A stretch of DNA of 28,069 nt from positions 1 to 28,069 of the IMG/VR virus record IMGVR_UViG_3300025120_009293; one strand, 5' to 3'. The notes beneath the pieces are model-generated. The model saw only the letters and a list, made by a program, of their open reading frames with translations. It was not told the DNA's origin and made no database searches. Origin of the DNA: a virus. The position numbers and the translations under genes are program-made. Positions 7,504 to 24,608 of this stretch are shown here, one piece after another; position 1 is the first letter of the stretch; each line of letters starts with the position of its first letter.

Positions 7504-7790
7504 TATTTTGGATAGGATTCACAGTAATGGTGTTGAACGAGGGCTTTGTTATTATGCGCCACGTTCATCCTTGGTTTGCAACTAAGAGAGATCAACTAAT
7601 TGCAAAATATGGTAGTAAGTGGAAGAAGTTCCACGCAACACTTGACTATGTATGGATAGGCGGAGTTAGTATAGGAATACTAATTGATTTTTCTAATTGG
7701 AAATTTTATGCAACTGTATTAGCAGTGTTTTGGGGAATAGTTGCAGTATTTGTATATCTACCTTTACTAATTAAAAGACTTACTAAATGA
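7500..7790 (+). CDS. Small three-helix membrane protein
   Basis: The product has 96 residues starting at ATG 7500, in an ATGA overlap with uvsY; a longer in-frame start at 7443 would run deep into uvsY and is rejected. There are three hydrophobic segments: residues 1-20 (IFWIGFTVMVLNEGFVIM), about 47-64 and about 70-90, with a Lys/Arg-rich loop (KRDQLIAKYGSKWKK) between the first and second. It ends in KRLTK. No family is recognised. It lies between uvsY and the SufE-like gene in one translationally coupled operon. It is probably an inner-membrane protein; a holin-like role cannot be excluded but nothing specific supports it. Confidence 0.78.
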   Translation: MIFWIGFTVMVLNEGFVIMRHVHPWFATKRDQLIAKYGSKWKKFHATLDYVWIGGVSIGILIDFSNWKFYATVLAVFWGIVAVFVYLPLLIKRLTK

Positions 7791-8185
7791 AAATAAATGA
7801 GTGGGCAGATAATCTAAGTCTTATAGATGAAGGACATGATAAGTTAGCATACCTTGTTGAACTAGCAAGGAAAGAAACTAGTTTACCAGCAGAGCTACGA
7901 ACAAAAGACAGATTAGTGGACGGATGCATGTCACAAATATGGATAGATGTAGGTGTTGTAGAAGATAAAGTAAAAGTATATTACGACAGCGATGCAATGA
8001 TAACAAAAGGTATTACAAGTATTGTTGCAGATTGTTTCTCAGATATTCCAGTTGCAGAAGCAAAGCAACTTACACATGATGACTTTCAAAGTTTAAACAT
8101 TGCACAACTTCTTACGCAACAACGTAGAAATGGATTGGGAAACCTTATAGAAACAATTCGAAAAAAAGTGCATGTGTTGTGCTAA
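7787..8185 (+). CDS. sufE: SufE-like sulfur acceptor protein
   Basis: SufE takes persulfide sulfur from the cysteine desulfurase SufS and passes it to the SufBCD scaffold for Fe-S cluster assembly. The 132-aa product matches the family in length and key signature: RLVDGCMSQIWIDV (residues 42-55), with C47 aligning to the catalytic Cys in the bacterial motif EGCQSQVW. Supporting features are an N-terminal helix followed by a YLVELAR segment, ITKGITSIVADCFSD in the middle, and a C-terminal QRRNGLGNLIETIRKK helix typical of SufE. No SufS is encoded here, so it would act on the host enzyme. It starts in an ATGA overlap with the membrane protein gene and converges with a minus-strand gene, sharing 4 bp. 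Confidence 0.88.
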   Translation: MKINEWADNLSLIDEGHDKLAYLVELARKETSLPAELRTKDRLVDGCMSQIWIDVGVVEDKVKVYYDSDAMITKGITSIVADCFSDIPVAEAKQLTHDDFQSLNIAQLLTQQRRNGLGNLIETIRKKVHVLC

Positions 8186-8934
8186 CGATTAATTAAGTCT
8201 TCGTATAGTCTGTTAAAGTGTTGCTTACGTAACGGACCTTTAAAATCAATTAATATATTAGTAGGGTTTTCTTTTAACCCACCGCCCTTTTTTAATCCCT
8301 TGACATAACGTCCGTATTGAAAGAACTTAACCTTAAGTCCTTTAGACTCATATATTTTAAACCTACTAGAATAATCTTTTTTAAACATATCTAACAGGCC
8401 GTATTTTTTTAACAAAACAGTATAGCTCTGCTGGTCGCCGTACCATGTTTTAATTTTCTCGTCTAACTGATGATATATTTTTAAACGTTGTTTAAAGAAC
8501 TCGTCTATCCTTTTTGCATTATCGTTATTTTTTGCTACTAATACAACAGTATTGTTTACTTGTTCACCGTTCATAAAAATACCTATATCAAAGTTAGGTC
8601 CGTGAAAGAAGTTACTTACATTACTACATATAAGATGATCTGCACCGCATAATACCATTAAGCCTTCATTTTTGTATACATATTCTGTATTACTTTGTGT
8701 AAGGCTTTGCATTATATTCATGTCATTTAAATTACTACGAAATACATTATCAAAATCTAATGTTGTATGTAAGTCTGTAGCAACTTCAAAAATACCTTGT
8801 GGGTTATGTTTCTTATAGGTATTGTACATCAAAGACAATGCATTTTTGTAATCAAAAATGTCATGCATTTCTTTTAATTCATCACCTTCTGATGGAATAT
8901 TTGCGTCTTTATAAAATGGAACTAAACGTATCAT
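8182..8934 (-). CDS. Putative glycosyltransferase
   Basis: The last gene of the five-gene minus-strand operon encodes 250 residues. Features typical of nucleotide-sugar transferases are a hydrophobic strand ending in an acidic motif (LMVLCGADHL, GAD at 97-99), a central FDIGIFMN...NTVVLVAKN segment, YGDQQS (165-170), and a C-terminal ILIDFKGPLRKQHF (227-240), reminiscent of families in which a late Lys or His contacts the nucleotide. I cannot assign a CAZy family. Its start overlaps the aminotransferase stop (ATGA), so both are probably translated together. It most likely transfers the sugar made by the neighbouring enzymes, or a related one. Acceptor and donor are unknown. Confidence 0.7.
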   Translation of the reverse strand: MIRLVPFYKDANIPSEGDELKEMHDIFDYKNALSLMYNTYKKHNPQGIFEVATDLHTTLDFDNVFRSNLNDMNIMQSLTQSNTEYVYKNEGLMVLCGADHLICSNVSNFFHGPNFDIGIFMNGEQVNNTVVLVAKNNDNAKRIDEFFKQRLKIYHQLDEKIKTWYGDQQSYTVLLKKYGLLDMFKKDYSSRFKIYESKGLKVKFFQYGRYVKGLKKGGGLKENPTNILIDFKGPLRKQHFNRLYEDLINR

Positions 8935-9962
8935 ACATATTGTCCTAATACATCTATTACCTTTATAGCATCTACACCTGGATACATAGGTAAACTTAGT
9001 TCTGTATTAGCAATACGTTCTGTTACAGGTAAATGTACACCTGTTTTATGACTGTGAAACTTATGTACAGGTATTGGATAATGTATACCTGTTGCAACTT
9101 TATCATTAGTTTCTTTTCTTACATTATTTCTATCTTCAACTAGAATAGGATATATGTGATAACTGTGGGTTACACCTTTTTTAGTATAACAGTTATTAAA
9201 ATGATCGTTGTATATTTCTGCAATTTTATATTTTTCTTCTAGTATATTGCTGTAGTTTTTTAGTTTTATTTTTAAAAATTCAGCTTGTAAATTACTAAGT
9301 CTATAATTATATCCTAATGAAGTACTATCCCAGGAACGTAGTTCTTTAAGATGTTCTGAAATATCGTTATCGTCAGTAACTATACATCCTGCATCTCCTA
9401 ATGCACCTAAGCCCTTACCTGGGTAAAAACTAAATGTACCTATCTTTCCAAATGTACCAACCTTCTTACCATTAAGTGTACTACCGTGTGCTTGGCTACA
9501 ATCTTCTACTATAGGTATATTGTGTCTATCTGCTATTTCTTTTATAGCAATCATATCGCAAACATTTCCGTATATATGTACTGGTAAAATTGCTTTTGTT
9601 TTGTTTGTAATTTTTAATTCAATTTGAGTCGCATCCATACAGTAAGTAAAAGGATCTACATCTACATAAACAGGTGTTGCTCCACAATAGCGTATAGCTG
9701 ATACTGTTGCTCTAAATGTGTGTGATACTGTTATTACTTCATCACCAGGACCAATACCTAATGCCATTAGTGCCATATGTAAAGCACTTGTACCGCTAGA
9801 AACACCAATACAATTTTTGTTACCATTCCATTCTGCAAAGTCTTCTTCAAATGACTCTGTACCAAACACGTAGTTGCCACTTCTAATAATTTTGTCAGAG
9901 GCTTTACAAAGAGCATCTATACTATCCATATTAATAGCTTCCATGTCATAAAATTTAATCAT
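8931..9962 (-). CDS. DegT/DnrJ/EryC1-family sugar aminotransferase
   Basis: This PLP enzyme puts an amino group on a keto-sugar nucleotide. The 343-aa protein carries the family motifs in order: GVSSGTSALHMAL (53-65), PGDEVITVSHTF, PVHIYGN (127-133), VEDCSQAHG (152-160, with D154 and Q157 for the PLP ring), and FSFYPGKGLGALGDAG with K183 as the Schiff-base lysine. Length is slightly short for the family (about 360-390). The adjacent dehydrogenase and hexapeptide acyltransferase point to a WbpE-like 3-aminotransferase acting on a 3-keto UDP-sugar acid; QdtB/FdtB-like specificity is the alternative. It overlaps the upstream gene by 8 nt and the downstream gene by 4 nt. Confidence 0.93.
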   Translation of the reverse strand: MIKFYDMEAINMDSIDALCKASDKIIRSGNYVFGTESFEEDFAEWNGNKNCIGVSSGTSALHMALMALGIGPGDEVITVSHTFRATVSAIRYCGATPVYVDVDPFTYCMDATQIELKITNKTKAILPVHIYGNVCDMIAIKEIADRHNIPIVEDCSQAHGSTLNGKKVGTFGKIGTFSFYPGKGLGALGDAGCIVTDDNDISEHLKELRSWDSTSLGYNYRLSNLQAEFLKIKLKNYSNILEEKYKIAEIYNDHFNNCYTKKGVTHSYHIYPILVEDRNNVRKETNDKVATGIHYPIPVHKFHSHKTGVHLPVTERIANTELSLPMYPGVDAIKVIDVLGQYV

Positions 9963-10863
9963 ATAGCCACTCCATTGGTTTTATACTATTCGTAATATCA
10001 GTTAACGGTCTTTCTCTAGTTTCAATACTAGTCATCCACGCCTTTGCTCCGTTGGCTAATGCTTCTGTGGTTTTAGTATGCGGTGTTACTATATCACCTA
10101 AACTATTAAAGCTGAAATCTTTATCTATTTCACCTGTATGATATATCTTCAATTTATCATTTTCTAAATCATCATAAACTACACTTGCATCTGAACCGGC
10201 TAATATTATCTGTCTCTTTTTTACAGGACTAACCCAATTACAATTTATACATGCTGTAAATTTATTTGTAAATTTTAAATTAATAATAACTTGATTTGCT
10301 TGATCATTTACATGCGAATTTTTTACAATATGTTTCTCAGCTAATTCTAAATTAGGATACAAATAATTTAATATACTAGTATCGTGAATTGCTAAATCTA
10401 ATGCTACATCAACATCTGGTTGAAATAAACCTAAACTTATACGTTGACTGTCGTAATACAACGGTTTACCTATCTCAAGTTTTTTCATTTTAACAACAGC
10501 AGGATGATAACAAAATGTATGATCTACAAATACTATTTTATTTTTCTTTACAGCGTATGATTTTAAATCGTAAACTTGATTCAATGTTTCGCACACTGGC
10601 TTTTCTATCCACAAGTCTTTACCTGCATCAATGCATTTTATAGCAAGGTCATAATGACTATGTGCTTTTGTTGCAAGTGCTACTGCTTGAACTTTATTGT
10701 GTTTAAGAGCTTCTTCGAGCTTATCGTACATTGTAATATCTGGATATAGTTCTAATGCTGCTAACTGCTTTTCTGGATCCTGTTCACAAATTGCAACTAA
10801 ATTTTTTCCAAAGTTTCTTGCTAAATTTTTACCCCAATATCCGTAACCAACTAATAATATCAT
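9955..10863 (-). CDS. Gfo/Idh/MocA-family sugar dehydrogenase (WbpB-like)
   Basis: It is a predicted NAD-dependent sugar-nucleotide dehydrogenase of 302 aa. The start at 10863 (MILLVGYGYWG) is chosen because it forms an ATGA overlap with the upstream gene and puts the Rossmann motif GYGYWGKN at residues 6-13. Other motifs are WIEKPVC (EKP at 87-89), the usual catalytic-lysine site, and DLAIHDTSILNYL (H160-D161), which resembles the WbpB/WlbA group of 3-dehydrogenases. WbpB oxidises C3 of UDP-GlcNAcA before WbpE transaminates it, and the aminotransferase lies directly downstream. No 6-dehydrogenase (WbpA) is in the window, so the UDP-sugar acid would come from the host or another part of the genome. 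Confidence 0.9.
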   Translation of the reverse strand: MILLVGYGYWGKNLARNFGKNLVAICEQDPEKQLAALELYPDITMYDKLEEALKHNKVQAVALATKAHSHYDLAIKCIDAGKDLWIEKPVCETLNQVYDLKSYAVKKNKIVFVDHTFCYHPAVVKMKKLEIGKPLYYDSQRISLGLFQPDVDVALDLAIHDTSILNYLYPNLELAEKHIVKNSHVNDQANQVIINLKFTNKFTACINCNWVSPVKKRQIILAGSDASVVYDDLENDKLKIYHTGEIDKDFSFNSLGDIVTPHTKTTEALANGAKAWMTSIETRERPLTDITNSIKPMEWLYD

Positions 10864-11555
10864 CTTAAGTATTTTCCTTGAATAGGCCAACGCCATTCTT
10901 TTATTTCATTACGCTTTGCAACTACTACAGTAATCGCACGATTAGGTAAACTTTTTGGAGTTATAGTATTGACATCTAATTCTTTATTTTTTACCCAATA
11001 ACTTCTGTCTAGTATTTCAAATCCATTCCACTCAAATCCGTCTTGATGTGCAAGTGTACAAAAGTTCCAATATCCGTGATTTAGTTTACTTATTGGAGCT
11101 GCTGACATAAACACACCACCTTGTTTAAGTGATTCACATACGTTCTTAAATGCTGTACCAACATTAAAACAATGTTCTAATGTACCTGTATCAATAACAA
11201 TATCATATTGCTGTTTGTGTTCTTCTGCTAGAGGTTCATTTAGATCAACAATTACTTCGAAACCTCTATGATTTACACCATCAAATATTGTAGGTTCAAA
11301 TCCTTGTTCTCTAAGTATCCAAAGCATATCAAAAATTTTTGGTAACGATGCTTTTTTATGCCAGGCTCTAATTTCATCTGGTAGCGGATCTTGTGGAATT
11401 TTATTTGCAAACTTATTACCATGTAATTCAACTAAAGTATTGTAGTCAACTAAGCAATCAGGATATCCTAAACATAATGCTTTTTTAGGCCCTTCAGTTA
11501 GTTGCTCGTCTACAACCTTTTTAAATTTCCTATAATAAAAGTTATCCACACCCAT
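10860..11555 (-). CDS. SAM-dependent methyltransferase-like protein
   Basis: The 231-aa product has the later motifs of class I methyltransferases: YDIVIDTGTLEHCFN (117-131) followed by a helix, LKQGGVFMSAAP (143-154) and a hydrophobic C-terminal part. The first, SAM-binding glycine motif is not canonical: the expected position reads PTIFDGVNHRGFEVIVDLNE, with no GxGxG. The enzyme may bind SAM in a modified way or may have lost activity. It lies inside the sugar operon, overlapping the acyltransferase by one base and the dehydrogenase by four, so O-methylation of a sugar is the natural guess. Confidence 0.75.
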   Translation of the reverse strand: MGVDNFYYRKFKKVVDEQLTEGPKKALCLGYPDCLVDYNTLVELHGNKFANKIPQDPLPDEIRAWHKKASLPKIFDMLWILREQGFEPTIFDGVNHRGFEVIVDLNEPLAEEHKQQYDIVIDTGTLEHCFNVGTAFKNVCESLKQGGVFMSAAPISKLNHGYWNFCTLAHQDGFEWNGFEILDRSYWVKNKELDVNTITPKSLPNRAITVVVAKRNEIKEWRWPIQGKYLR

Positions 11556-11986
11556 TAAACAATCTCTTTCTCTAATTTCTTTGCAGGATTACCTATGTAA
11601 GTTCCTGGTTCTGTTATGTCTTTAGTAACAACTGCACCTGCACCAATTACAACATCGTCGCATACCCTTACAGGCAATAGTGTTGCATTACTACCAATAT
11701 ATACTTTGTTTCCTATACGTGTAGGTAAAAAATCTTTGCTTAATTGTCTATCTTCAAACTTATCATTAGTAAACATTACGCCATGGCCTACAAAACAGTC
11801 ATTACCTATGTATACATTACTACATATAAAACTATGGCTCTGTACTCTGGTGTTTTTACCTATTCTCACATCTGATTGTATTTCCACAAACGGGCCTACA
11901 AACACATTATCATCAAGTGTACACCCGTAAATATTTACAGGTTCAATTATTTTTACACTATCTTTTTTATCTACATCTTTTTGCAT
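11555..11986 (-). CDS. Hexapeptide-repeat sugar N-acyltransferase (WbpD-like)
   Basis: This is a left-handed beta-helix acetyltransferase of 143 aa. Hexapeptide repeats run from about residue 15 to 125 (for example VFVGPFVEIQSDVRIGKN, VYIGSN, VVIGAGAVV), ending with a YIGNPAKKL segment typical of sugar acetyltransferases. The SHSFICSNVYIGNDCFVGHG stretch (50-69), with H68 a candidate catalytic base, and the following VMFTND resemble WbpD/WlbB, which acetylates the 3-amino group left by WbpE. It is the first gene of the minus-strand operon and is preceded by CATAAATA 4 nt before its ATG without a Shine-Dalgarno. Confidence 0.9.
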   Translation of the reverse strand: MQKDVDKKDSVKIIEPVNIYGCTLDDNVFVGPFVEIQSDVRIGKNTRVQSHSFICSNVYIGNDCFVGHGVMFTNDKFEDRQLSKDFLPTRIGNKVYIGSNATLLPVRVCDDVVIGAGAVVTKDITEPGTYIGNPAKKLEKEIV

Positions 11987-11990
11987 ATAG

Positions 11991-11998
11991 TATTTATG
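11991..11998 (-). promoter_or_regulatory. T4-type late promoter (CATAAATA) for the minus-strand sugar operon
   Basis: On the minus strand CATAAATA ends 4 nt before the ATG at 11986. It is the only promoter-like site seen upstream of the five-gene operon and would give a leaderless or nearly leaderless mRNA. Confidence 0.55.
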
Positions 11999-12058
11999 TG
12001 CGTAGTTAATGGCTAAATAATTTTCACACCAAATTGAATAACTATCATTAAGTAGGTA

Positions 12059-12066
12059 TATAAGTA
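12059..12066 (+). promoter_or_regulatory. Late-type promoter variant (TATAAGTA)
   Basis: TATAAGTA differs from TATAAATA at one position and ends 5 nt before ATG 12072. It lies back to back with the minus-strand late-type promoter at 11991-11998, so the 85-bp gap is a divergent promoter region. Confidence 0.45.
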
Positions 12067-12071
12067 ATAGT

Positions 12072-12842
12072 ATGAAAGTAGTATTAGTTACAGGCGGATT
12101 TGATCCACTACACTCAGGGCATTTAGCCTATTTTAAAGAAGCAAAGAAACTCGGCGACAAACTTATTGTTGGTGTGAACAGTGACGAATGGTTAACACGT
12201 AAAAAAGGTAGACCATTTATGCCCTTTCAAGAACGTGTAGCACTAATACAAGAAATGGAAATTATTGACAAAGTAGTTGGGTTTGACGATAGCGACGATT
12301 CAGCGTGTCAAGCAATTTTTCATACGCTAAGTACACACGGAACCATTAAACTAATCTTTGCTAACGGCGGAGACAGAACTAACACTACAACACCTGAGTA
12401 TAAAACATACGGAAATCATCCTCTTGTTGAATTTGCGTTTGGCGTTGGTGGTGAAGATAAAAAGAACTCTAGTAGTTGGATACTAGAAGAATGGAAAGCG
12501 CCTAAGACTGAGCGAACCTGGGGGTATTATAGGGTGATACATGAATACGATAAACATACAAAAGTAAAAGAACTAGCAGTGCCACCTGGCAATAAACTTT
12601 CAATGCAAAGACACGAAAAAAGATCTGAACATTGGTTTGTTGCAGAAGGAACGGCAACTGTTTACACATTAAATGTAGCAACTGATTATGAATTATACGG
12701 TACATTTGATCAACATAAAAGTCTACATATACCACAAGGAATGTGGCATCAGTTAGCAAACGAATCAACAGTACCATTGAAACTTGTTGAAATACAATAT
12801 GGTACTAATTGCGTGGAGGAAGACATTGAACGTACAGCATGA
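12072..12842 (+). CDS. Fusion: cytidylyltransferase-like domain plus ManC-type cupin
   Basis: Residues 1-140 are a HIGH-type nucleotidyltransferase: VTGGFDPLHSGHLAYF with HSGH (14-17), GVNSDEW (34-40) and NGGDR (98-102), as in TagD (glycerol-3-phosphate) and HldE/RfaE2 (heptose-1-phosphate) enzymes. Residues 150-252 form a cupin like the isomerase part of bifunctional mannose-6-phosphate isomerase/GDP-mannose pyrophosphorylases: SMQRHEKRSEHW (177-188) holds candidate metal ligands and HIPQGMWHQLAN (219-230) closes the barrel. The product may activate a sugar or polyol phosphate with CTP and isomerise a related sugar. The real substrates cannot be read from sequence. It is the first plus-strand gene of the glycan island. 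Confidence 0.85.
   Translation: MKVVLVTGGFDPLHSGHLAYFKEAKKLGDKLIVGVNSDEWLTRKKGRPFMPFQERVALIQEMEIIDKVVGFDDSDDSACQAIFHTLSTHGTIKLIFANGGDRTNTTTPEYKTYGNHPLVEFAFGVGGEDKKNSSSWILEEWKAPKTERTWGYYRVIHEYDKHTKVKELAVPPGNKLSMQRHEKRSEHWFVAEGTATVYTLNVATDYELYGTFDQHKSLHIPQGMWHQLANESTVPLKLVEIQYGTNCVEEDIERTA
12815..12819 (+). promoter_or_regulatory. Shine-Dalgarno selecting a TTG start
   Basis: GGAGG lies 6 nt before TTG 12826, inside the end of the previous gene. The other in-frame candidate, ATG 12799, has no such site, so TTG 12826 is preferred. Confidence 0.65.
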
Positions 12843-14544
12843 TTTTTACAGAATCTATATAGGTTACGATAGTAGAGAAGAAATTGCATATGAAGTTGCT
12901 AAACATAGTATACTATCAAATGCAAAAGTACCAAGTAGCATAGAAGTATTGCCTCTTAAATTGGATACACTTAGAGAGAGTGGTCACTATTGGAGACCAA
13001 TAGATGAACTAGGATCAACAGAGTTTACTTTTAGTAGATTCCTTTTACCAGAATTAAATAATTTTGACGGTTGGGCATTGTTTATCGATTGTGACTTTCT
13101 TTTTCAAGCAGATGTAGCAAAGTTGTTTCGATACGCTGATCCTAGGTATGCAGTTATGTGTGCAAAACATGACTATACTCCGCCAGTAGGACAAAAAATG
13201 GATGGTAAACAACAGCATCAATATCCAAGAAAAAACTGGAGTTCAATGGTACTATGGAACTGTGGACACCCTAGTAATAAACAAGTAACAAAAGAATTAA
13301 TTAATGCAGAAGGCACTGAGGGTAAGTTTTTACATAGATTTAGCTGGTTAAGAGACGAAGAAATTGGCGAAATATCATATGAATGGAATTGGCTTGCAGG
13401 CTGGTATCATGAACCAGAAGATGGTAAACCAAAAGCTATTCATTATACAGAAGGCGGACCTTGGTTTAAGGATTACCAAAATTGTGAGTATGCTTTAGAA
13501 TGGATATTAGAAGAAAAGAACTATATAAAGTCAAATAAGAAAGAATCAAAGGCATTTCCAAAGACCGGAACTTGGGATAATTATACAGAGCTTAAAGAAG
13601 ATCTAATGCAAGCAGTTTTAAATTATAGTGTAGATCCGCATAACTATTTTTTAAAAGACACACTGGAAAACATAAAAGAAAAGGTGGAGAAACAAGCGAT
13701 GGGGAATAAAGTTGCAGCAATAAGTAGCGAAGGTGGAATTGGCTACGATAAAAAAGGTCTTCCATATGACAATCTGTTAATTAATTTTATACATGGTAGC
13801 GGTGGCTATCTAAGTGACTGGGATAGAGAATCAAAAACTACAAACACCTTAGTTATAAGAGGCTTAGGCGGCGGCAGTCGGAAAGCTCTTCACCATTGTA
13901 GAGATACAGGTAGGGAATTTTATGCAGTTGATACTGGATACTTTGGTAACGAAAAACACAAAAGGTTACACAGAGCATCACACAACAGTTTACAATGTAT
14001 GACTCCAATTAAAGAACATTCAGTTGATAGAGCTAAAAAGTTTGGTTATAAATTTAAAAAATTTAAAAAAGGATCTAAAATATTAATTTGTCCTCCAAGC
14101 ATAAAAGTTATGGATTATTTTGGACAACCAAATCCTAATGTTTGGACAGAAGACGTAGTTAGACAATTAAGAATACTAACTGATAGACCGATTGAAGTTA
14201 GATTAAAACCTTCAAGAACTGAAAGAGTAACAACGAAAACAATGCAACAAGCACTTGCTGATGATGTACATTGTTTAGTCACTTATAACAGTATAGCAGC
14301 TGTAGAAGCAATGATGGAAGGTAAACCTGCGATCGCATTAGGTCCTAATGCGGCACAACAATTATGTAGTAGCATGTTAAGTGAAGTTGAAAATCCTAAA
14401 ATACCAACATCAGAAGAGATGGATGCATTTATGGCACACCTAGCATATAATATGTTTACAGAAGCAGAGATGAGAGAAGGATACGCATGGAGACAATTAC
14501 ATGAAAATCGTGAGCTACCTGAGTGGAATCCCACCGAAGAATAA
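12826..14544 (+). CDS. Bifunctional glycosyltransferase: GT-A domain plus polysaccharide-transferase-like domain
   Basis: From TTG 12826 the protein has 572 residues, with FYRIYIGYDSREE as the first conserved block. Residues 1-235 form a GT-A fold like GT8-type enzymes, with the metal-binding motif FIDCDF (D88, D90), WSSMVLWNCGHP and HYTEGGPWF (206-214). After a linker, residues 290-572 form a second domain with INFIHGSGGYLSDWD, ILTDRPIEVRLKPSR (450-464), TYNSIAAVEAMMEGKP (486-501) and a C-terminal ENPKIPTSEE block. The same blocks occur in two proteins encoded downstream, and they resemble the KpsC/KpsS-like capsule transferase fold, where a late NS...G.P motif binds the nucleotide sugar. 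It overlaps the upstream gene by 17 nt and the downstream gene by 44 nt. Confidence 0.82.
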   Translation: MNVQHDFYRIYIGYDSREEIAYEVAKHSILSNAKVPSSIEVLPLKLDTLRESGHYWRPIDELGSTEFTFSRFLLPELNNFDGWALFIDCDFLFQADVAKLFRYADPRYAVMCAKHDYTPPVGQKMDGKQQHQYPRKNWSSMVLWNCGHPSNKQVTKELINAEGTEGKFLHRFSWLRDEEIGEISYEWNWLAGWYHEPEDGKPKAIHYTEGGPWFKDYQNCEYALEWILEEKNYIKSNKKESKAFPKTGTWDNYTELKEDLMQAVLNYSVDPHNYFLKDTLENIKEKVEKQAMGNKVAAISSEGGIGYDKKGLPYDNLLINFIHGSGGYLSDWDRESKTTNTLVIRGLGGGSRKALHHCRDTGREFYAVDTGYFGNEKHKRLHRASHNSLQCMTPIKEHSVDRAKKFGYKFKKFKKGSKILICPPSIKVMDYFGQPNPNVWTEDVVRQLRILTDRPIEVRLKPSRTERVTTKTMQQALADDVHCLVTYNSIAAVEAMMEGKPAIALGPNAAQQLCSSMLSEVENPKIPTSEEMDAFMAHLAYNMFTEAEMREGYAWRQLHENRELPEWNPTEE

Positions 14545-15433
14545 TAATTTACAAAAACCTGCAATCTTATATAATTTTATTCATGGTGTAAATCGTTTTG
14601 GCGATACTGGTATAATACATACAGGTTACGATATTATAGATAGTGATGTAGGTGTATTGCAAGGCTTTGTACACGAATCAAGTAAAAATATGCCGCACCT
14701 TAGATTACGCAAAAACGTAATAGATGCACAAAAAGTTAGAGGTGGTAGGACAGTAATTGTAGATAGTAATCTATTTTTATATGCTGATGCTTCTAACACA
14801 CACAACTATCTTCGTTATAGTTATGACGGCGTTTTTCCTGCAACAGGATACTATTTTAATGAAGAAGTTGATCCTACAAGATGGCAAAAAATATCAGCTG
14901 ATCACAATATAAGTCTAAAAGATTATAGAACAACAGGTAAACATATATTACTATGTCTACAACGTAATGGTGGCTGGAGTATGCATGGCATTGATGTAAT
15001 GGATTTCTGTCATGATATAATAAACAAAATAAGAAATTTTACAGATAGACCAATAGTTGTAAGAGGCCATCCTGGTGATAAAAAAGCAGAACAATACTTA
15101 AGATTAAACTATCCAAGAGTATTCATAAGTCCTAAAGGTACTAAGTTACAAAATGATTTGCACGGAGCATGGGCATCAGTAGTATTTAATTCTAGTCCCG
15201 GAGTTGCAAGTTTAATAGAAGGTGTGCCTGTTTTTATGATGGATCCTGATCCAGGATATAGTCAATATTCTGAAATTGCAAACACTAATTTAAAACGTAT
15301 TGAAAATCCAAAACTAAATGATAGACAACAATGGATAGAAAAAATATGTATGAGTCACTGGAAGTTTGATGAATTACTTAGTGGCGAAGCATGGGAGCAT
15401 ATGCGTAAGAGTGTTTACTTACCGGCCCAATAA
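14501..15433 (+). CDS. Polysaccharide-transferase-like protein, paralog of the upstream C-terminal domain
   Basis: The 310-aa product shares a block order with its neighbours: YNFIHGVNRFGDTGIIHTG at the N-terminus, NFTDRPIVVRGHPGD (179-193), VVFNSSPGVASLIEGVP (227-243) and RIENPKLNDRQQW near the end. This looks like a GT-B-type transferase of the capsule class (KpsC/KpsS-like), though the family is not certain. It lacks the GT-A half found in the gene before. GGAG lies about 9 nt before ATG 14501. The 3' end overlaps the convergent glycosyltransferase gene by 19 bp. Confidence 0.78.
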   Translation: MKIVSYLSGIPPKNNNLQKPAILYNFIHGVNRFGDTGIIHTGYDIIDSDVGVLQGFVHESSKNMPHLRLRKNVIDAQKVRGGRTVIVDSNLFLYADASNTHNYLRYSYDGVFPATGYYFNEEVDPTRWQKISADHNISLKDYRTTGKHILLCLQRNGGWSMHGIDVMDFCHDIINKIRNFTDRPIVVRGHPGDKKAEQYLRLNYPRVFISPKGTKLQNDLHGAWASVVFNSSPGVASLIEGVPVFMMDPDPGYSQYSEIANTNLKRIENPKLNDRQQWIEKICMSHWKFDELLSGEAWEHMRKSVYLPAQ

Positions 15434-16263
15434 TTTTCTGTTCTATTAACCATTATATCACTACCTTTACTACGACCTAATTCTTTGCGGCCGCCTTTCA
15501 TGTGATCAATCCATTTACCTAACATAGTATTAATAAGAGGGTGTCCACCGCCTCCTGTTTTAGCTTCTTTTAAATACATTTCTGAAGAGTAATCTAATAC
15601 ATTATTATCTATGTTACGCATTAATTGTAGTATATGTCCAAACACAAAACTATCATGCCATTCTTCTAATTCAAATATACCATTGTTTGCATCTTCATAA
15701 AATCTTTCAAATTCTGCTAAAAATTGTTTACACATTGGATGATCGAGATTTAATCCATAGAATCCGCACTCGGGCCAAGTTTGCGACCCTTTGCCTCTAC
15801 CTACATATGTAATCCATTTTTTATTAGGTAATAATTCTTTAAAATCTTCATATGACCATTGGTTATGTACAAATGTATCTGCGTCCATCCATACTACCCA
15901 GTTGTTATAAGTTTCACATGCATCAAATACTGCATAAACTTTGTTAGCAAATCTAATGGCATCCCATTTAAATTCTTTATGGTGATCACGCGGTCTACGT
16001 GCTACAATGTCAGGTGGTGGTTTACCATTTGCTTTAGGTACATCTTTCCAACGTTCTTTAAATGCAACTAACTTAGGTAATACTTTATGGTGATCTTTTA
16101 CAATTACTTGTGCAGGATCTTTAACTAGTGGTTGGCAGTCTTCTGCATATACAACTAGCTTAATTCTTTTATCTACACAATTTTCGAAACTTGTAATAAA
16201 TCTTTGTCCATATAAATCTAATCCAGGTTTATGAAATGTTGTAACCACAGTTATGTCTTGCAT
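15415..16263 (-). CDS. GT-A-type glycosyltransferase
   Basis: The 282-aa protein begins with ITVVTTFHKPGLDLYGQRFI, a typical first strand and loop of nucleotide-sugar transferases. The metal-binding motif is WMDADTFV (DAD at 127-129), and HDSFVFGH lies in the second half. No membrane segment is seen. It is the only minus-strand gene in this part of the island and lies between two plus-strand paralogs. It has its own site AAGGA about 6 nt before the ATG. A small divergent gap (16264-16301) separates it from the next gene. Sugar and acceptor are unknown. Confidence 0.85.
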   Translation of the reverse strand: MQDITVVTTFHKPGLDLYGQRFITSFENCVDKRIKLVVYAEDCQPLVKDPAQVIVKDHHKVLPKLVAFKERWKDVPKANGKPPPDIVARRPRDHHKEFKWDAIRFANKVYAVFDACETYNNWVVWMDADTFVHNQWSYEDFKELLPNKKWITYVGRGKGSQTWPECGFYGLNLDHPMCKQFLAEFERFYEDANNGIFELEEWHDSFVFGHILQLMRNIDNNVLDYSSEMYLKEAKTGGGGHPLINTMLGKWIDHMKGGRKELGRSKGSDIMVNRTENYWAGK

Positions 16264-16301
16264 CTTGATTCCTTTGTAAATATACTATAAAGTATTTAAG
16301 C

Positions 16302-17150
16302 ATGAAATTCAATCTTTGGACACAATATGGCGCACTAAATTCAAAACCAGTTTTTGAAGCATTTGCTGCGGGTGCAACTTCATTAGGACACCAAGTAGTA
16401 TATAATTCTAACAGTGGTATAGATGTAATTTGGAGCGTATTGTTTAATGGTAGAATGTCAGGTAATAAGCAAGTATGGGATAGAAATAAAGCAACAAAAC
16501 AACCTACAATAGTTTTAGAAGTAGGTGGCATTAAACGAGGCACAACATGGAAGGTAGGACTTAATGGGATTAATCGAGACGCTTTTTTTGCTAATAGTGG
16601 CAACGATGATACTCGTAGCATACAGTTAGGACTTAAATTATTACCTTGGCAAAAAGGTGAAAATATATTAATATGCGGACAGCATGATAAAAGTCTGCAA
16701 TGGACAAACATGCCACGTATGAGCAATTGGTTCTTAAATACATATGACGAAATACGTAAGCACACAGATCGACCTATTATATTTAGAGCGCATCCACGAT
16801 GCAGATTAGAACACATTGAACGAGGTCTTAGATACGTTACAAGACAGGAGCCGCAACACATTGCCAATACTTACGATGATTTTGATATGGGGTTTAGTAA
16901 TATACATTGCACTATCAGCCATAGTAGTAACCCTGGGATACATTCTATTATCTCCGGCGTTCCTAGTTTTGTTAGCCCTAGCAGTCTTGCTTATGATGTA
17001 GGCAATGATATCGACTTTATACATGATATAGAACAACCTTTAAAGCCAGATAGACAACAATGGTTAAATGACTATGCACACACTGAATGGACAGTGCAAG
17101 AAATTTCTAAAGGAATTCCACTTAAACACTTGACTTCTATGTTAATTTAA
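16302..17150 (+). CDS. Polysaccharide-transferase-like protein, third paralog
   Basis: The 282-aa product carries the same landmarks as the two upstream plus-strand genes: KHTDRPIIFRAHPRC (153-167), TISHSSNPGIHSIISGVP (204-221) and DIEQPLKPDRQQWLNDYAHT near the end. Its N-terminus (MKFNLWTQYGALNSKPVFEA) is its own. It is probably a GT-B-like glycosyltransferase acting in the same pathway. No Shine-Dalgarno is seen; upstream TATAAAGTA (16286-16294) is a poor version of the late promoter octamer. Its 3' end contains the -35 element of the next gene's promoter. Confidence 0.78.
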   Translation: MKFNLWTQYGALNSKPVFEAFAAGATSLGHQVVYNSNSGIDVIWSVLFNGRMSGNKQVWDRNKATKQPTIVLEVGGIKRGTTWKVGLNGINRDAFFANSGNDDTRSIQLGLKLLPWQKGENILICGQHDKSLQWTNMPRMSNWFLNTYDEIRKHTDRPIIFRAHPRCRLEHIERGLRYVTRQEPQHIANTYDDFDMGFSNIHCTISHSSNPGIHSIISGVPSFVSPSSLAYDVGNDIDFIHDIEQPLKPDRQQWLNDYAHTEWTVQEISKGIPLKHLTSMLI

Positions 17151-17164: not shown

Positions 17165-18379
17165 ATGAAACTAGAAAATATCGAAGAACATCTCCAACAT
17201 CTATGCGGATTTATTACAGATGAGTGTAACTATGACATTGATAAAAATGATCTAAATTTGTTAACTAGTCTTGGTAGACAGGTAGTTAAGGGCATTGCTC
17301 TTACTGACAGACAACATGTGTTATTAAAACAAAAATTAATTGCATACAAAACACAGTTTGAAAGCAATGATATTTTTTCATTAGAAGAAACATTAGATAT
17401 AACAAAGTATCCTTTGAGAGAAATAGATAGAACTAAGTCTATAGAAATTATTAATGACGGTGAAACTAAAATAAAGATAAAGTTTCCGTTTAGTAAACGA
17501 TTAATATCGTTAATTGAAAAACTTAGAATAATACAAGGCAACGATTATAACCAGGCAAGAAAGACACATACAATCCCTTATACAGACAAAAACTTTTTTG
17601 ATATATGTGAACTTACAAAATTAAAAAACTTTGACATGTCAGAAGATCTAAAAAATTTACACAAGGATTTATTACAAATGAAAGAAAACCCAAAAGATTT
17701 CTTGCCAGGCATATATGGGTTTAAATTAAAAAATTTAAATGACAGGGCAATAGAATATGCATTTAGCACAATAGGTGAACCTAGTAAAGATAACTTACCA
17801 TTGTACGCTGATAGAAAAGACCAATTAGGACTGCACTATTTTGACGAAGACGATTTGAATATAAGTTTAGATAAACTAAGCGTATTGAGTAAAAAAGTAG
17901 TACAACGCCTAAATAAAGAAATTTTTGTAGATGCAAAAAAATATAATGTTAATGACATTGCATCTACAATATTAGAACTACACAGATTTCCTGTGTTGGT
18001 AGTGTTACCAAACGAAGACCCATTAGGTCATATGTTAAACATTTATAAAACATTCAACGGCATAATTAGCAGTGATAGATTTTCAGTAATGTTTAGATTA
18101 GATAATAAATCAGAATATGAAAAAAGTTTTAATGAAGCTATAAAAGATTATGGCCTAAATAATAAACTTGACAACCAAACTAAAATAGTGTATATTAGTA
18201 AAGATAAGTTACCAAAAACACTACTCACAGCAGATTGGCAACCTGACTGTGCGTTGTTATTAGAATCACATTCTGCAACAGGCAACTTAAGACCATATCT
18301 GTCTAACTTAGATTTAGTTATACATTATGATACAGGAAAGAGTTCATTTGCAGTGAGGAATGGAATGGAAGATATTTAA
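17165..18379 (+). CDS. UvsW-associated protein, possible HARP-like/helicase-derived
   Basis: The 404-aa product overlaps the uvsW start by one base (TAATG), so both are probably made together. No Walker motifs are visible. Residues 104-150 (IKIKFPFSKRLISLIEKLR, then YNQARKTHTIPYTDKNF) resemble the short HARP-type DNA-annealing domain of SMARCAL1-class proteins. The region after 270 (FPVLVVLPNEDPLGHML) reads like a Rossmann-type strand and could be a degenerate helicase lobe. I infer a DNA-binding partner of UvsW; the family is otherwise unrecognised. The gene is driven by the sigma70 promoter just upstream. Confidence 0.78.
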   Translation: MKLENIEEHLQHLCGFITDECNYDIDKNDLNLLTSLGRQVVKGIALTDRQHVLLKQKLIAYKTQFESNDIFSLEETLDITKYPLREIDRTKSIEIINDGETKIKIKFPFSKRLISLIEKLRIIQGNDYNQARKTHTIPYTDKNFFDICELTKLKNFDMSEDLKNLHKDLLQMKENPKDFLPGIYGFKLKNLNDRAIEYAFSTIGEPSKDNLPLYADRKDQLGLHYFDEDDLNISLDKLSVLSKKVVQRLNKEIFVDAKKYNVNDIASTILELHRFPVLVVLPNEDPLGHMLNIYKTFNGIISSDRFSVMFRLDNKSEYEKSFNEAIKDYGLNNKLDNQTKIVYISKDKLPKTLLTADWQPDCALLLESHSATGNLRPYLSNLDLVIHYDTGKSSFAVRNGMEDI

Positions 18380-20729: not shown

Positions 20730-21446
20730 ATGTTTAATAAACTATTAGAAGGTGTCGATAAGGCACTTGTAACTAAACTAGTTATTTTACACACGCTTGT
20801 TATTGCTGTGTCAAACTACTTAGTTACGATTAGATTTGATTTATTTCCAGGTGCTGAATTGCCCTTGTTTGGATCATTTCCACTAGCGGCGGCGGCATTT
20901 ACATTTCCGATCGTTGTTGTAGCAACTGACCTTACAGTACGTATGGTTGGCAAAGAAGCAGGTAGAGCCGTTGTAGCAATGGCAATTATTCCTGCTATCG
21001 TAGCATCGGTACTTGTGCTATTAGCACTAGGTGACGAACATGCATACAGAGTAGGTTTAGCATCAGGTGTAGCATATGCAGTAGGTACAATGCTTGACGT
21101 ATATGTATTCCAAGCAATTAGAGAACGATCAAATGCATGGTGGGCGGCACCAGCACTTTCAACAGTTGTTGCAAACATTATTGACACATACTCATTCTTT
21201 TATGTGGCATTTGCAGGATCGTTGGACGCAGAAGGTAACATGTCCTGGATTGGCGCAAACTGGCACATTGTTGCACAGAACAACACACTAACAAAAATTG
21301 TTGTAGGCTTAATTGTATTCCTTCCAGCATACGGTATACTACTACGTTACCTAAACGGCAAGATGTCAGATGATATTCTTGTATTGAAGGATGAAGTAAA
21401 AGAAGCGCCTAAGAAGCGTGGACGTAAGCCAAAGACAAAGGCTTAA
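20730..21446 (+). CDS. yhhQ: YhhQ-type queuosine-precursor transporter
   Basis: YhhQ proteins carry 7-deazaguanine precursors (preQ0/preQ1) across the inner membrane. The 238-aa product has about six hydrophobic segments and family signatures: SNYLVTIRFDL, VVATDLTVRMVGKEAGR, a GTMLDVYVFQAIRERSNAWW block, and APALSTVVANIIDTYSFFYV. E. coli YhhQ is slightly shorter (about 220 aa); the extra is a C-terminal tail (EAPKKRGRKPKTKA) containing a GRKP element like an AT-hook. The substrate could feed host tRNA queuosine or phage deazaguanine DNA modification, but no Que or Dpd gene is in this window. AGGAG precedes the ATG. Confidence 0.92.
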   Translation: MFNKLLEGVDKALVTKLVILHTLVIAVSNYLVTIRFDLFPGAELPLFGSFPLAAAAFTFPIVVVATDLTVRMVGKEAGRAVVAMAIIPAIVASVLVLLALGDEHAYRVGLASGVAYAVGTMLDVYVFQAIRERSNAWWAAPALSTVVANIIDTYSFFYVAFAGSLDAEGNMSWIGANWHIVAQNNTLTKIVVGLIVFLPAYGILLRYLNGKMSDDILVLKDEVKEAPKKRGRKPKTKA

Positions 21447-22779: not shown

Positions 22780-23189
22780 ATTTATTTCAAGACGGCGACT
22801 TTACAAGTCACGCAGGATTGCCACTCAAGTGGAAACTAGAGTGTGATGCTATTACAGACGACGAATGGCGTTGCCTAGCAAAAATGGTTATGGATTATCA
22901 AACTCGTCCTTTTTATAAAGCAGTTGGAATTCCTAGAGGAGGCCTTAAATTTGCAGAAGCAATGAATGAATATGCAAGTGGTAACGACACAGATCAAATT
23001 ATGATCTGTGATGATGTGTTTACTACAGGTACAAGTATGTTAGATTTTATTAAAGAAGAATATCCAATGTGGTCTATGGGCCAAGGATATCGTTGGGTAG
23101 CATTTGCTAGAAAGCCTAGCAACGTAAACCCTTATCATACTAGAGCATTATTTACAATGCCAAATGTTACTACTGAGGAATATAAATGA
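22776..23189 (+). CDS. Phosphoribosyltransferase-like protein
   Basis: The protein has 137 residues from ATG 22776, chosen for its GGGGAG site and ATGA overlap. The PRPP-binding loop IMICDDVFTTGTSM (75-88) is a clear type I PRTase signature (two acidic residues, then TTGTS), and VGIPRGGLKFAEAM (50-63) matches the preceding PPi-loop region. The protein is short for orotate or hypoxanthine PRTases (about 180-210 aa), so the hood that selects the base is reduced and the substrate cannot be named. It is coupled to kdsA by an ATGA overlap. Confidence 0.85.
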   Translation: MNLFQDGDFTSHAGLPLKWKLECDAITDDEWRCLAKMVMDYQTRPFYKAVGIPRGGLKFAEAMNEYASGNDTDQIMICDDVFTTGTSMLDFIKEEYPMWSMGQGYRWVAFARKPSNVNPYHTRALFTMPNVTTEEYK

Positions 23190-23956
23190 GAATTATAGCA
23201 GGACCGTGTCAACACGAAACAATTGAACAAAGTTTAGAAATTGCAATGGAATGTAAACATGTATGCGACCTATATGGAATTGAATACATATTCAAAGCAA
23301 GTTTTGATAAAGCAAATAGAAGTAGTATGCAAGGGCAAAGAGGTCTTGGACTAATGCCTACATTACATGCGTTTGCCGATTTAAAATCAGAAATAAAAGA
23401 TTTAAAAATTTTAACAGACGTTCACACAGTAGAGCAAGTGCGAGAGCTTGCTGATAGTCCGTTGATTGATGTTTTACAAATACCTGCATTCTTATGTAGG
23501 CAAACTGATCTAGTGCAAGCTGCTTGTGCTACAGACAAGATTGTAAATATTAAAAAAGGACAGTTCTTAGCACCTTGGGATATGAAAGGTATACTGTCAA
23601 AGACAGATAAAGCTAAAGAAGTTTGGATAACAGAGAGAGGAACAAGTTTTGGATACAATACTCTTGTTGTTGATTTTACCGGTTTGGATTACATGCTTAA
23701 TAATTATGATACCCCTGTGGTTCTTGATGCCACCCACTCAGTACAGAAACCAGGCGGCAATGGAGATAGTAGCGGCGGCAATAGGGATTACGTTCCTGGC
23801 TTATGTCGTGCAGGTAGTGCTTTGGGTATTACAAATTTCTTTATAGAAGTACATGCTGATCCTGATATAGCACCTAGTGATGGTCCTAACATGCTACGCT
23901 TGAAAGATTTTGAAAGGGTTGTTGATGACATCGTCCGCTATTCTTATACCAGCTAG
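23186..23956 (+). CDS. kdsA: 3-deoxy-D-manno-octulosonate-8-phosphate synthase
   Basis: KdsA condenses phosphoenolpyruvate with arabinose-5-phosphate to Kdo-8-phosphate, the first committed step to the LPS sugar Kdo. The 256-aa product has the family blocks FKASFDKANRSS (36-47), LTDVHTVEQV, LQIPAFLCRQTDLV (97-110), NIKKGQFLAPWDM (121-133), ERGTSFGYNTLVVDF and DATHSVQKPGG (181-191). C8 (in AGPC), H184, E221 and D232 fit the four ligands of the metal-dependent class, whereas E. coli KdsA has Asn at the Cys position. It is about 25 residues shorter than usual, mostly at the N-terminus. It overlaps kdsB by 32 nt. Confidence 0.95.
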   Translation: MRIIAGPCQHETIEQSLEIAMECKHVCDLYGIEYIFKASFDKANRSSMQGQRGLGLMPTLHAFADLKSEIKDLKILTDVHTVEQVRELADSPLIDVLQIPAFLCRQTDLVQAACATDKIVNIKKGQFLAPWDMKGILSKTDKAKEVWITERGTSFGYNTLVVDFTGLDYMLNNYDTPVVLDATHSVQKPGGNGDSSGGNRDYVPGLCRAGSALGITNFFIEVHADPDIAPSDGPNMLRLKDFERVVDDIVRYSYTS

Positions 23957-24608
23957 ATACGGTAGTACACGCTACCCTGGAAAGCCGTTGGTTAACTTAG
24001 ATGGCGTTCCTATGATAAAACGTGTGTATGACGCTTGTATTGCGTCTAAGACACCAACATATGTACTAACTGATGATGTACGTATTGCTAGTATATTTCA
24101 AAATACAAGTGTTATTATAGAAGACACAGACTATATAAACGGCACTGAAAGATGTGCTGGCGCTAGTAAATTAGACTACATGCAGAAGTACGATAAGTTT
24201 ATTAATGTACAAGGCGATATGCCTGATATAACTACTGAGATGATTGAAACTTGTGTTGGATTATTAGATGAATATCCTGTTTCAACAGTGTATACTGAGA
24301 TGCCTGAAGAAATGCAAAATGATCCTAACTCAGTTAAAATGGTACGTGCAGGCAATAGTGCGTTATGGTTTGGTAGAGGTATGACAGGTTATGGTGATTG
24401 GCACTTGGGTGTATATGGATATACTCGTGATGCATTACAGTCATATATAACATTACCGCAAGAACGTGAAGAAAAGATTGAGCAACTAGAACAACTACGA
24501 TGGCTAAAAAGTGGTTGCAAAATAGGTTGTTCTAGTGTATACTTTAATGGTATAGAAATAAATGCACCACAGGACGTAATAGAATGGCACAACAAACACT
24601 CCCTATAA
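23925..24608 (+). CDS. kdsB: CMP-Kdo synthetase (3-deoxy-manno-octulosonate cytidylyltransferase)
   Basis: KdsB activates Kdo with CTP to CMP-Kdo for transfer to lipid A or capsule. The 227-aa product starts at ATG 23925 behind AAAGGG. Signatures are LIPARYGSTRYPGKPLV (7-23), NGTERCAGA (72-80), FINVQGDMPDI (92-102) and HLGVYGYTRDAL. The usual QGDEP reads QGDMP here, so the Glu after the conserved Asp is replaced. It is about 20 residues shorter than typical bacterial KdsB. The Kdo-8-phosphate phosphatase (KdsC) that should act between KdsA and KdsB is not in this window and may come from the host. Confidence 0.93.
   Translation: MTSSAILIPARYGSTRYPGKPLVNLDGVPMIKRVYDACIASKTPTYVLTDDVRIASIFQNTSVIIEDTDYINGTERCAGASKLDYMQKYDKFINVQGDMPDITTEMIETCVGLLDEYPVSTVYTEMPEEMQNDPNSVKMVRAGNSALWFGRGMTGYGDWHLGVYGYTRDALQSYITLPQEREEKIEQLEQLRWLKSGCKIGCSSVYFNGIEINAPQDVIEWHNKHSL

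Follow-up and report, generated by a model that had tools for sequence, protein, structure and literature searches.

A glycosyltransferase cassette of marine T4-like phages with three KpsC-like domains that lack the nucleophilic aspartate

Three neighbouring genes of a T4-like marine phage carry one homologous domain. Modelling and profile comparison assign it to the fold of the retaining Kdo transferases KpsC, WbbB and KrkA, and the nucleophilic Asp of these enzymes is lost in all three copies, which probably means an altered reaction building part of a surface sugar. The genes and their surroundings in the window, as we call the whole analysed stretch of 28,069 nucleotides, are as follows.

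8182-11986, minus strand: accessory sugar genes, WbpB/E/D-like (DegT aminotransferase, Gfo/Idh oxidoreductase, methyltransferase, hexapeptide acyltransferase and one unknown)
12072-12842, plus strand: RfaE2/TagD-like nucleotidyltransferase fused to a mannose-6-P-isomerase-type cupin (Pfam CTP_transf_like 4e-16, MannoseP_isomer 1e-24)
12826-14544, plus strand: copy 1 (P1), GT8-like GT-A half fused to a KpsC-fold GT-B half
14179-14211, plus strand: TDRPIEVRLKP of copy 1, with KP at the HP of the CMP motif (Lys in 26/26 orthologs)
14501-15433, plus strand: copy 2 (P2), KpsC-like GT-B with RxHP, and QRNGG at the QXXXD position
14960-14974, plus strand: Q154-G158 of copy 2, the QXXXD nucleophile-motif position
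15415-16263, minus strand: P4, second GT-A-type protein, between copies 2 and 3 (DAD at 127-129)
16302-17150, plus strand: copy 3 (P3), KpsC-fold GT-B with RxHP and SS, and QHDKS at the QXXXD position
16680-16694, plus strand: Q127-S131 of copy 3, the QXXXD nucleophile-motif position
17165-18379, plus strand: conserved gene of no assigned function, between copy 3 and UvsW in relatives
23186-23956, plus strand: KdsA, Kdo-8-phosphate synthase (NCBIfam NF003543, 333.8 bits, cut-off 242)
23910-24608, plus strand: KdsB-like CMP-Kdo synthetase (NCBIfam NF003952, 167 bits, below the cut-off of 193; Pfam CTP_transf_3 2e-22)

One domain in three genes and its fold

BLASTP aligned the three copies at 22-26% identity across 160-175 residues, with E values of 4e-14 (copies 2 and 3), 4e-12 (copies 1 and 2) and 1e-12 (copies 1 and 3). 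Profile-profile comparison of the ortholog sets gave 2.5e-32 for copies 2 and 3, and 9e-26 and 4e-16 for the remaining pairings. When copy 2 was used as query against the whole record, it matched copies 1 and 3 only. The three genes thus carry one homologous domain, as an earlier note on this DNA had claimed. The three motif blocks described there are present as TDRPIEVRLKP, NSIAAVEAMMEGKP and EVENP in copy 1, TDRPIVVRGHP, NSSPGVASLIEGVP and IENP..QQW in copy 2, and TDRPIIFRAHP, SSNPGIHSIISGVP and IEQP..QQW in copy 3; only the Gln-Trp element, found in copies 2 and 3, is missing from copy 1.

The predicted structure of copy 3 (pLDDT 94.4) matches KpsC best (6mgc; Z 13.9, rmsd 3.5, 230 aligned), with Z 12.6 to WbbB and Z 11.0 to KrkA. 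Retaining Kdo transferases fill the best 26 Foldseek rows and the best 15 VIA rows for this model, and the families after them begin at Z 10.8 with an rmsd of 6.2. The copy 1 model matches KpsC 8fux in Foldseek only (E 5e-6), and the fold of copy 2 is linked by its profile comparison with copy 3. Rather than different folds, copy 3 and, more weakly, the GT-B half of copy 1 are predicted to have the reduced two-domain GT-B fold of KpsC (GT107), WbbB (GT99) and KrkA (GT140), to which copy 2 would belong by profile only. The likeness extends over both domains of the fold (Z 11.0-13.9 for copy 3), and the motifs (Gln loop, (K/R)XHP, Ser) follow one another in the same order and at the same spacing. 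Sequence similarity is weak but real. Structural identity is about 10-14%, and the phage enzymes differ further in having a GT8-like partner, fused or unfused.

The resemblance to KpsC and KpsS suggested earlier is borne out by the copy 3 model and by hhalign, in which a combined phage GT-B profile reached bacterial KpsC/KpsS-type proteins at E 9.5e-10 and a QXXXD-bearing extra copy reached them at 2.6e-9 (controls with unrelated GT-A, E 0.02 or worse). Pfam PF05159 Capsule_synth matched only 8 of 105 members (best E 0.004) and none of the three window copies, which do not belong to this family at its cut-off; PHROGs and NCBIfam contain none that covers the GT-B domain of any of the three. PDB sequence searches returned chance matches to tubulin only with the GT-B profile and nothing firm with the two GT-A profiles, so the fold links rest on structure and profile comparison.

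The model also agrees with the DxD GT-A half ascribed to copy 1. This N-half (about residues 9-230, the GT-B half being about 296-562) has a GT-A fold, with best Z 18.1 to the GT8 enzyme 3tzt and 17.6 to LgtC, and D88 and D90 of its DCD (88-90) are invariant in 25 orthologs. Fold (Z 15-18) and DxD are shared with GT8 (LgtC, GlyE, glycogenin, WbbM C-half); unlike these, the N-half stays under the Pfam gathering score (PF01501, 18.5 bits against 24.3) and is a member of a SAR11/phage subfamily. The PHROG match, to the uncharacterised PHROG 28018, lies in the GT-A half only. The start codon of copy 1 is ambiguous (TTG 12784, ATG 12799 or TTG 12826). The earlier note overlooked P4 (15415-16263, minus strand), a further GT-A-like gene with DxD; its DAD is invariant in 38 orthologs, and its strand varies from relative to relative.

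Motifs of the nucleophile and the CMP site

Motifs were surveyed in 105 proteins, namely 41 of copy 3, 27 of copy 2, 26 of copy 1 and 11 of an extra GT-B copy that some relatives carry beside the three. At the nucleophile position of QXXXD, copy 3 has Ser (41/41), copy 2 has Gly (27/27) and copy 1 has Val, Pro or Ala (26/26); the extra copy has Asp (11/11). The His of HP is present throughout copy 3 (41/41), copy 2 (27/27) and the extra copy (11/11), and every aligned ortholog of copies 2 and 3 has RxHP. Lys takes its place in copy 1 (26/26), which reads RxKP in the window and falls outside the (K/R)XHP CMP motif; copy 1 has none of the Gln, Asp and His of the Kdo-transferase motifs. An acid in the N-domain is invariant (105/105), and Arg162, His164, Ser209 and many other positions are invariant, along with this acid, in copies 2 and 3. 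An Asp at Q+2 of copy 3 was considered as a nucleophile and dropped, because this residue varies (D/N/E; in copy 2, N/D/E/Q).

From these motif states the three GT-B copies appear to have abandoned double displacement with an Asp nucleophile. It is improbable that they are canonical retaining beta-Kdo transferases in which another residue replaces the Asp and the lost nucleophile alters the rate only. Copies 2 and 3 do retain the fold, HP and Q, and KdsA and KdsB are supplied, but the motif loop has no invariant acid, and in KpsC it is Asp160 that forms the covalent Kdo adduct, its replacement impairing the enzyme (PMC10148158). The best tree requires three changes at the nucleophile position; a constraint that groups every Asp-less row is not rejected either (AU p 0.157), and a single loss stays compatible.

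We tentatively propose that copies 2 and 3 represent new GT families with a Kdo-transferase fold, which have lost the nucleophile, retain a general base as well as the CMP site, and transfer with inversion. The sugar would pass directly from a CMP-sugar, and the invariant N-domain acid could act as general base, a role read from the alignment rather than from a superposed active site. Retention of the CMP-phosphate His and of this acid is as expected for a switch to inverting transfer. Inverting sialyltransferases with the HP motif use no enzyme nucleophile, and they resemble the phage copies in this and in the (K/R)XHP motif. That CMP-binding motif is found in GT29, 38, 42, 52 and 80 (PMC12887879). 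Sialyltransferase folds are absent among the best fold matches listed for the copy 3 model, an absence that does not exclude kinship.

Copy 1, without Gln, Asp and His, may use another donor or serve as a helper of its fused GT-A. A more general loss, in which all three copies would be inactive scaffolds or modules for acceptor binding while the two GT-A enzymes alone transfer, would accord with the missing nucleophiles, the further losses in copy 1 and its fusion to GT-A (25 of 81 loci). We hold it to be quite improbable, however, since the invariant residues of copies 2 and 3 fit catalysis better. The active-site motifs differ between the three copies, and a different sugar per copy is possible.

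Gene order and relatives in phages and SAR11

About 80 marine viral contigs hold the cassette in the same order: nucleotidyltransferase-cupin, GT-A, GT-B1, GT-B2, second GT-A, GT-B3 and UvsW, with kdsA/kdsB downstream. It sits between UvsX and UvsW, next to replication and recombination genes; tail fibres are not adjacent. The nucleotidyltransferase-cupin gene (NCBIfam rfaE_dom_II 4e-19, score under cut-off) lies directly 5' of GT-A in nearly all relatives (74 loci), KdsA is present in 41 of the 49 loci with enough flank, and copy 3 is the most conserved of the three copies. Pfam and NCBIfam searches with the gene at 17165-18379 gave no match. Near the cassette in the retrieved relatives no accessory sugar genes were found, except one DegT.

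The position between UvsX and UvsW of a T4-like phage would also suit glycosylation of phage DNA, as by the T4 alpha- and beta-glucosyltransferases, and viral-metagenome DNA hypermodification GTs are cited in PMC13216743. This reading is nevertheless very improbable, and we regard T4-type DNA glucosylation as unlikely. PF00303, the T4 dCMP hydroxymethylase family, was found in 0 of 12 relatives' records, some of 256 and 236 kb (the control matched 9 of 14 genomes; the window is only 28 kb long, and the records could be incomplete), and the GT-A family is one kept in SAR11 chromosomes. The control of a TET/JBP oxygenase search for DNA modification matched nowhere.

Orthologs of the GT-A half occur in 91 of 162 SAR11-order genomes, and it shares 52-65% identity with genes on SAR11 chromosomes. 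SAR11 genomes also contain relatives of the GT-B copies: one chromosome has a cluster of GT-A, GT-B, TPR, P4-like and GT-B genes, and a copy 2 ortholog of a SAR11 single-cell genome falls within the phage clade. Three bacterial matches (L096, L097, L098) were rejected as cellular genes, as they are phage cassettes inside MAGs. The three copies form separate lineages, each retained across phages, and those of copies 1 and 2 each have their own SAR11 cellular relatives, which argues against a recent duplication within phages. The earlier suggestion of old duplication or separate acquisition stands as regards the separate lineages, and a recent phage-internal event falls away. Phages bearing the cassette probably infect SAR11-type bacteria, and we infer such a host for this record.

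The SAR11 GT-A orthologs adjoin long TPR proteins and a sulfotransferase, partners that also accompany protein-modifying enzymes, and phages maintain the cassette as core-like genes. Both would fit glycosylation of virion proteins (capsid, tail fibres) or of another phage or host protein, in place of a lipid-linked surface glycan. We consider this rather unlikely, as KdsA, KdsB and the RfaE2-like nucleotidyltransferase indicate LPS- or capsule-type sugars, and the substrates of KpsC, WbbB and KrkA are glycans or glycolipids (PMC10148158, PMC12887879).

Pelagimyophage and cyanophage LPS/GT clusters (Mosig EXVC030M and relatives) likewise place GT8 and LPS-type genes in marine T4-like phages, and O-chain alteration was proposed for the pelagimyophage GT8 enzymes (PMC7029224). 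Mosig EXVC030M carries, one after another, a diverged GT-A and two GT-B copies. The present cassette differs in its fixed gene order between UvsX and UvsW, its larger number of copies and the presence of KdsA/KdsB. Neither the kinship with KpsC nor the lost nucleophile was found in the literature examined.

Proposed role of the cassette

The evidence on the cassette consists of homology, fold, synteny and motif states. We give an even chance to the reading that marine T4-like phages carry here a glycan cassette of host type, whose serial transferases, with altered GT-B chemistry, lengthen or cap a glycan on the host surface. While the phage infects its host, the GT8-like retaining GT-A, the three KpsC/WbbB/KrkA-fold GT-Bs and the second GT-A would work in series. 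One donor would be a CMP-ulosonate from the phage KdsA/KdsB, and another a sugar or alditol nucleotide from the nucleotidyltransferase-cupin protein. KdsA/KdsB in the window make CMP-Kdo a plausible donor; they are the sole direct sign of the identity of the CMP-sugar, KdsB scoring below its curated cut-off. The purpose is likely a change of the host surface, for superinfection exclusion or receptor masking. Several transferases probably do act in series, as had been proposed, but the heteropolymer assembly line envisaged with them found no backing: the window genes scanned, from a record that is a fragment, included none recognisable as a polymerase, flippase, ABC exporter or lipid-linked initiating transferase. 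The cassette has no membrane-placing feature.

These results tie an unannotated set of genes, which a large group of marine T4-like phages keeps much like core genes, to an enzyme fold that can be defined and to genes on the chromosomes of SAR11, which rank with the most abundant marine bacteria. For infected cells it predicts a phage-made glycan containing ulosonate. With the nucleophile lost from three adjacent paralogs and an intact form available for comparison, the way in which the chemistry of a retaining fold can change becomes directly testable. If the proposal for copies 2 and 3 is true, stereochemistry would have switched within one fold, the QXXXD form surviving alongside in related phages and SAR11 cells.

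Fold and active site of the repeated domain

The genes at 12826 (copy 1), 14501 (copy 2) and 16302 (copy 3) carry one domain, as the earlier note had proposed, with similarity far above chance (BLASTP E values of 4e-14, 4e-12 and 1e-12). Profile-profile comparison of the copies with their orthologs added gave E values of 2.5e-32, 9e-26 and 4e-16, and a search of their own record with copy 2 returned these three only. The motif blocks described for the three proteins were found letter for letter, except that the Gln-Trp block is missing from copy 1. The N-terminal half of copy 1 is indeed an added GT-A domain, with a DCD motif. A second gene of this kind, unmentioned in the earlier note, lies between copies 2 and 3:

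15415-16263, minus strand: P4, a second GT-A-like gene with an invariant DAD motif

An AlphaFold2 model of copy 3 was built from a 105-row alignment (pLDDT 94.4). The best 26 rows of a Foldseek search against the PDB were all retaining Kdo transferases, and VIA-align gave KpsC (6mgc; Z 13.9, rmsd 3.5, 230 aligned), WbbB (5fa1; Z 12.6) and KrkA (9yfz; Z 11.0), followed after the Kdo transferases by UDP-GlcNAc 2-epimerases (Z 10.8, rmsd above 6). The comparison with KpsC suggested earlier thus returned the KpsC fold for copy 3; for the copy 1 model, KpsC appears in the Foldseek list together with KrkA. That model has a pLDDT of 82 and a pTM of 0.51, so the relative placement of its two domains is poor; residues 3-243 match GT8-type enzymes (3tzt, Z 18.1; LgtC, 17.6). 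A combined phage GT-B profile matched a profile of bacterial PF05159 proteins, taken from alphaproteobacterial genomes, at E 9.5e-10, against 0.02 or worse for GT-A controls.

Retaining Kdo transferases are defined by a QXXXD motif, whose Asp is the nucleophile and forms a Kdo adduct; they also have phosphate-binding Ser residues and a (K/R)XHP CMP motif common to several sialyltransferase families (PMC10148158, PMC12887879). Residue states were read from 105 aligned phage proteins. At the nucleophile position, all copy 3 orthologs have Ser (41/41), those of copy 2 Gly (27/27) and those of copy 1 Val, Pro or Ala (26/26); Asp stands there in 11/11 examples of an extra GT-B copy found in some relatives (LQRPGDSSL at L027:2978-3712, in one of the fetched loci). 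Copies 2 and 3 have the motif Gln and the His of the HP motif; in copy 1 the Gln is gone and the His position is Lys in 26/26 orthologs. All 105 phage proteins have an acidic residue in the N-domain, which in copy 3 is Glu73. By hhalign, Gln127 and Ser131 of copy 3 pair with the bacterial QXXXD Gln and Asp, a pairwise match that is short and weak alone; the same register is given by copy-to-copy alignments and by those of the extra copy to KpsS. The three copies therefore share the fold of the retaining Kdo transferases but, with the nucleophile replaced in all of them, do not belong to that mechanism class as defined. Direct inverting transfer would be the simplest chemistry for an enzyme that retains the CMP site and the acid but lacks the nucleophile, and the alignment suggests the N-domain acid as a candidate base.

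A conserved cassette of old lineages

The window is a 28 kb piece of a T4-like phage genome, with terminase, gp32, UvsX and UvsW as markers. Searches with each protein gathered 89 viral loci, and nearly all with enough flank keep the order gp32, UvsX, an unknown gene (7048), a variable slot, nucleotidyltransferase-cupin, GT-A, GT-B copy 1, copy 2, P4, copy 3, an unknown gene (17165) and UvsW. KdsA and KdsB often lie farther on, beyond UvsW: KdsA in 41 of 49 testable loci and KdsB in 27, a count limited by the available flank. Three GT-B copies were counted in 62 loci, four in 16 and five in 4; the contigs are mostly fragments, so that absence counts are lower bounds, and each of 12 longer records has at least three.

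GT-A and copy 1 form a single fused gene in 25 loci, and in 56 each has a gene of its own. On the copy 3 tree this state changes 11 times, at least seven of them forced by well-supported branches, and the fusion is thus a labile detail, not a defining trait. P4 keeps its place, on the plus strand relative to its neighbours in 53 loci and on the minus strand in 34 (about nine changes on the same tree). A second fusion stands beside GT-A/GT-B: nucleotidyltransferase and cupin (12072-12842) form one protein in phages and separate small proteins in SAR11. Downstream of UvsW, 20730-21446 encodes a Vut_1 family membrane protein (YhhQ-like, of the queuosine-precursor transporter type) conserved in many relatives. 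In several relatives (L070:6440-9246, L072 and L076-L079), UvsW is divided among two or three ORFs about 0.9 kb apart; an inserted intron, intein or homing endonuclease is a possible cause.

In a tree of 75 proteins, the copy 1 sequences make up a single clade and so do those of copy 3, both with full or starred support; those of copy 2 also make up one clade, which includes a SAR11 gene. Copy 1 clusters with a 250-residue SAR11 family and phage Mosig; copy 2 falls inside a QXXXD-bearing set that also holds SAR11 genes. The nucleophile state changes three times on the best tree, but the AU test does not reject a tree with just one loss (p 0.157). Old duplication or separate acquisition had been put forward; these separate clades indicate old lineages and not recent phage duplicates.

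SAR11 relatives and a proposed surface-glycan role

Of 162 SAR11-order genomes searched with profiles, 91 have GT-A orthologs (nearly all at E 1e-98 to 1e-121), 57 have GT-B relatives, 13 have P4 relatives and 157 match the nucleotidyltransferase/cupin domains. The window GT-A is 65% identical to the GT-A of one of these genomes, G131, and about 52% to others; between purH and a thioredoxin gene, the G131 chromosome has a cluster of GT-A, GT-B, TPR, P4-like and QXXXD GT-B genes. The cultured SAR11 phage Mosig encodes a diverged GT-A and two GT-B copies consecutively. From these chromosomal homologs and the Mosig genes, the host of the window is probably of SAR11 type. A lone copy 2 ortholog lies between guaA and a thioredoxin-like gene, among ordinary chromosomal genes, on a genuine SAR11 chromosome contig of the single-cell genome SAG-MED31 (L095:8001-8909; JACWEB010000005.1); its placement within the phage clade suggests that the gene moved from a phage into the host.

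Bertelyvirus phages, such as Caulobacter phage C1 (L094:5809-8012), have a diverged GT-B beside GT-A, plus an FkbM methyltransferase, so the pairing extends past marine T4-like phages. A further fusion may exist in a phage from Manatee Spring (MW202713.1), where the annotation of a pyridoxal-phosphate-dependent enzyme covers a GT-B relative at 37070-37792.

Between gene 7048 and the nucleotidyltransferase, the slot of the window (7504-12071) spans about 4.5 kb and is larger than any seen in relatives, where it reaches at most 3.4 kb. It holds mostly minus-strand aminosugar-type genes, a DegT, Gfo/Idh, hexapeptide and methyltransferase set that, one DegT excepted, was not found in the fetched relatives, a difference suggesting that the GT core is constant and the accessory sugar chemistry around it variable. 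In relatives the slot often houses the extra GT-B with intact QXXXD, which mostly occurs there. A SufE-like Fe-S gene (7787-8185) had no match in the flanks of the fetched relatives.

T4-type DNA glucosylation by the cassette is disfavoured: PF00303 is missing from the records of 12 relatives, of which two exceed 230 kb, and the control search was positive. The heteropolymer assembly line envisaged earlier is not supported either, because none of the window genes scanned was recognised as serving export or polymerisation. Three lines of evidence favour a role in which the cassette would modify a surface glycan of the host: the fold, the homologs in the host's own chromosome, and the donor genes, with KdsA scoring above its curated cut-off, KdsB near its own, and an RfaE2-like nucleotidyltransferase. 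Such a role was previously proposed for pelagimyophage GT8 genes (PMC7029224).
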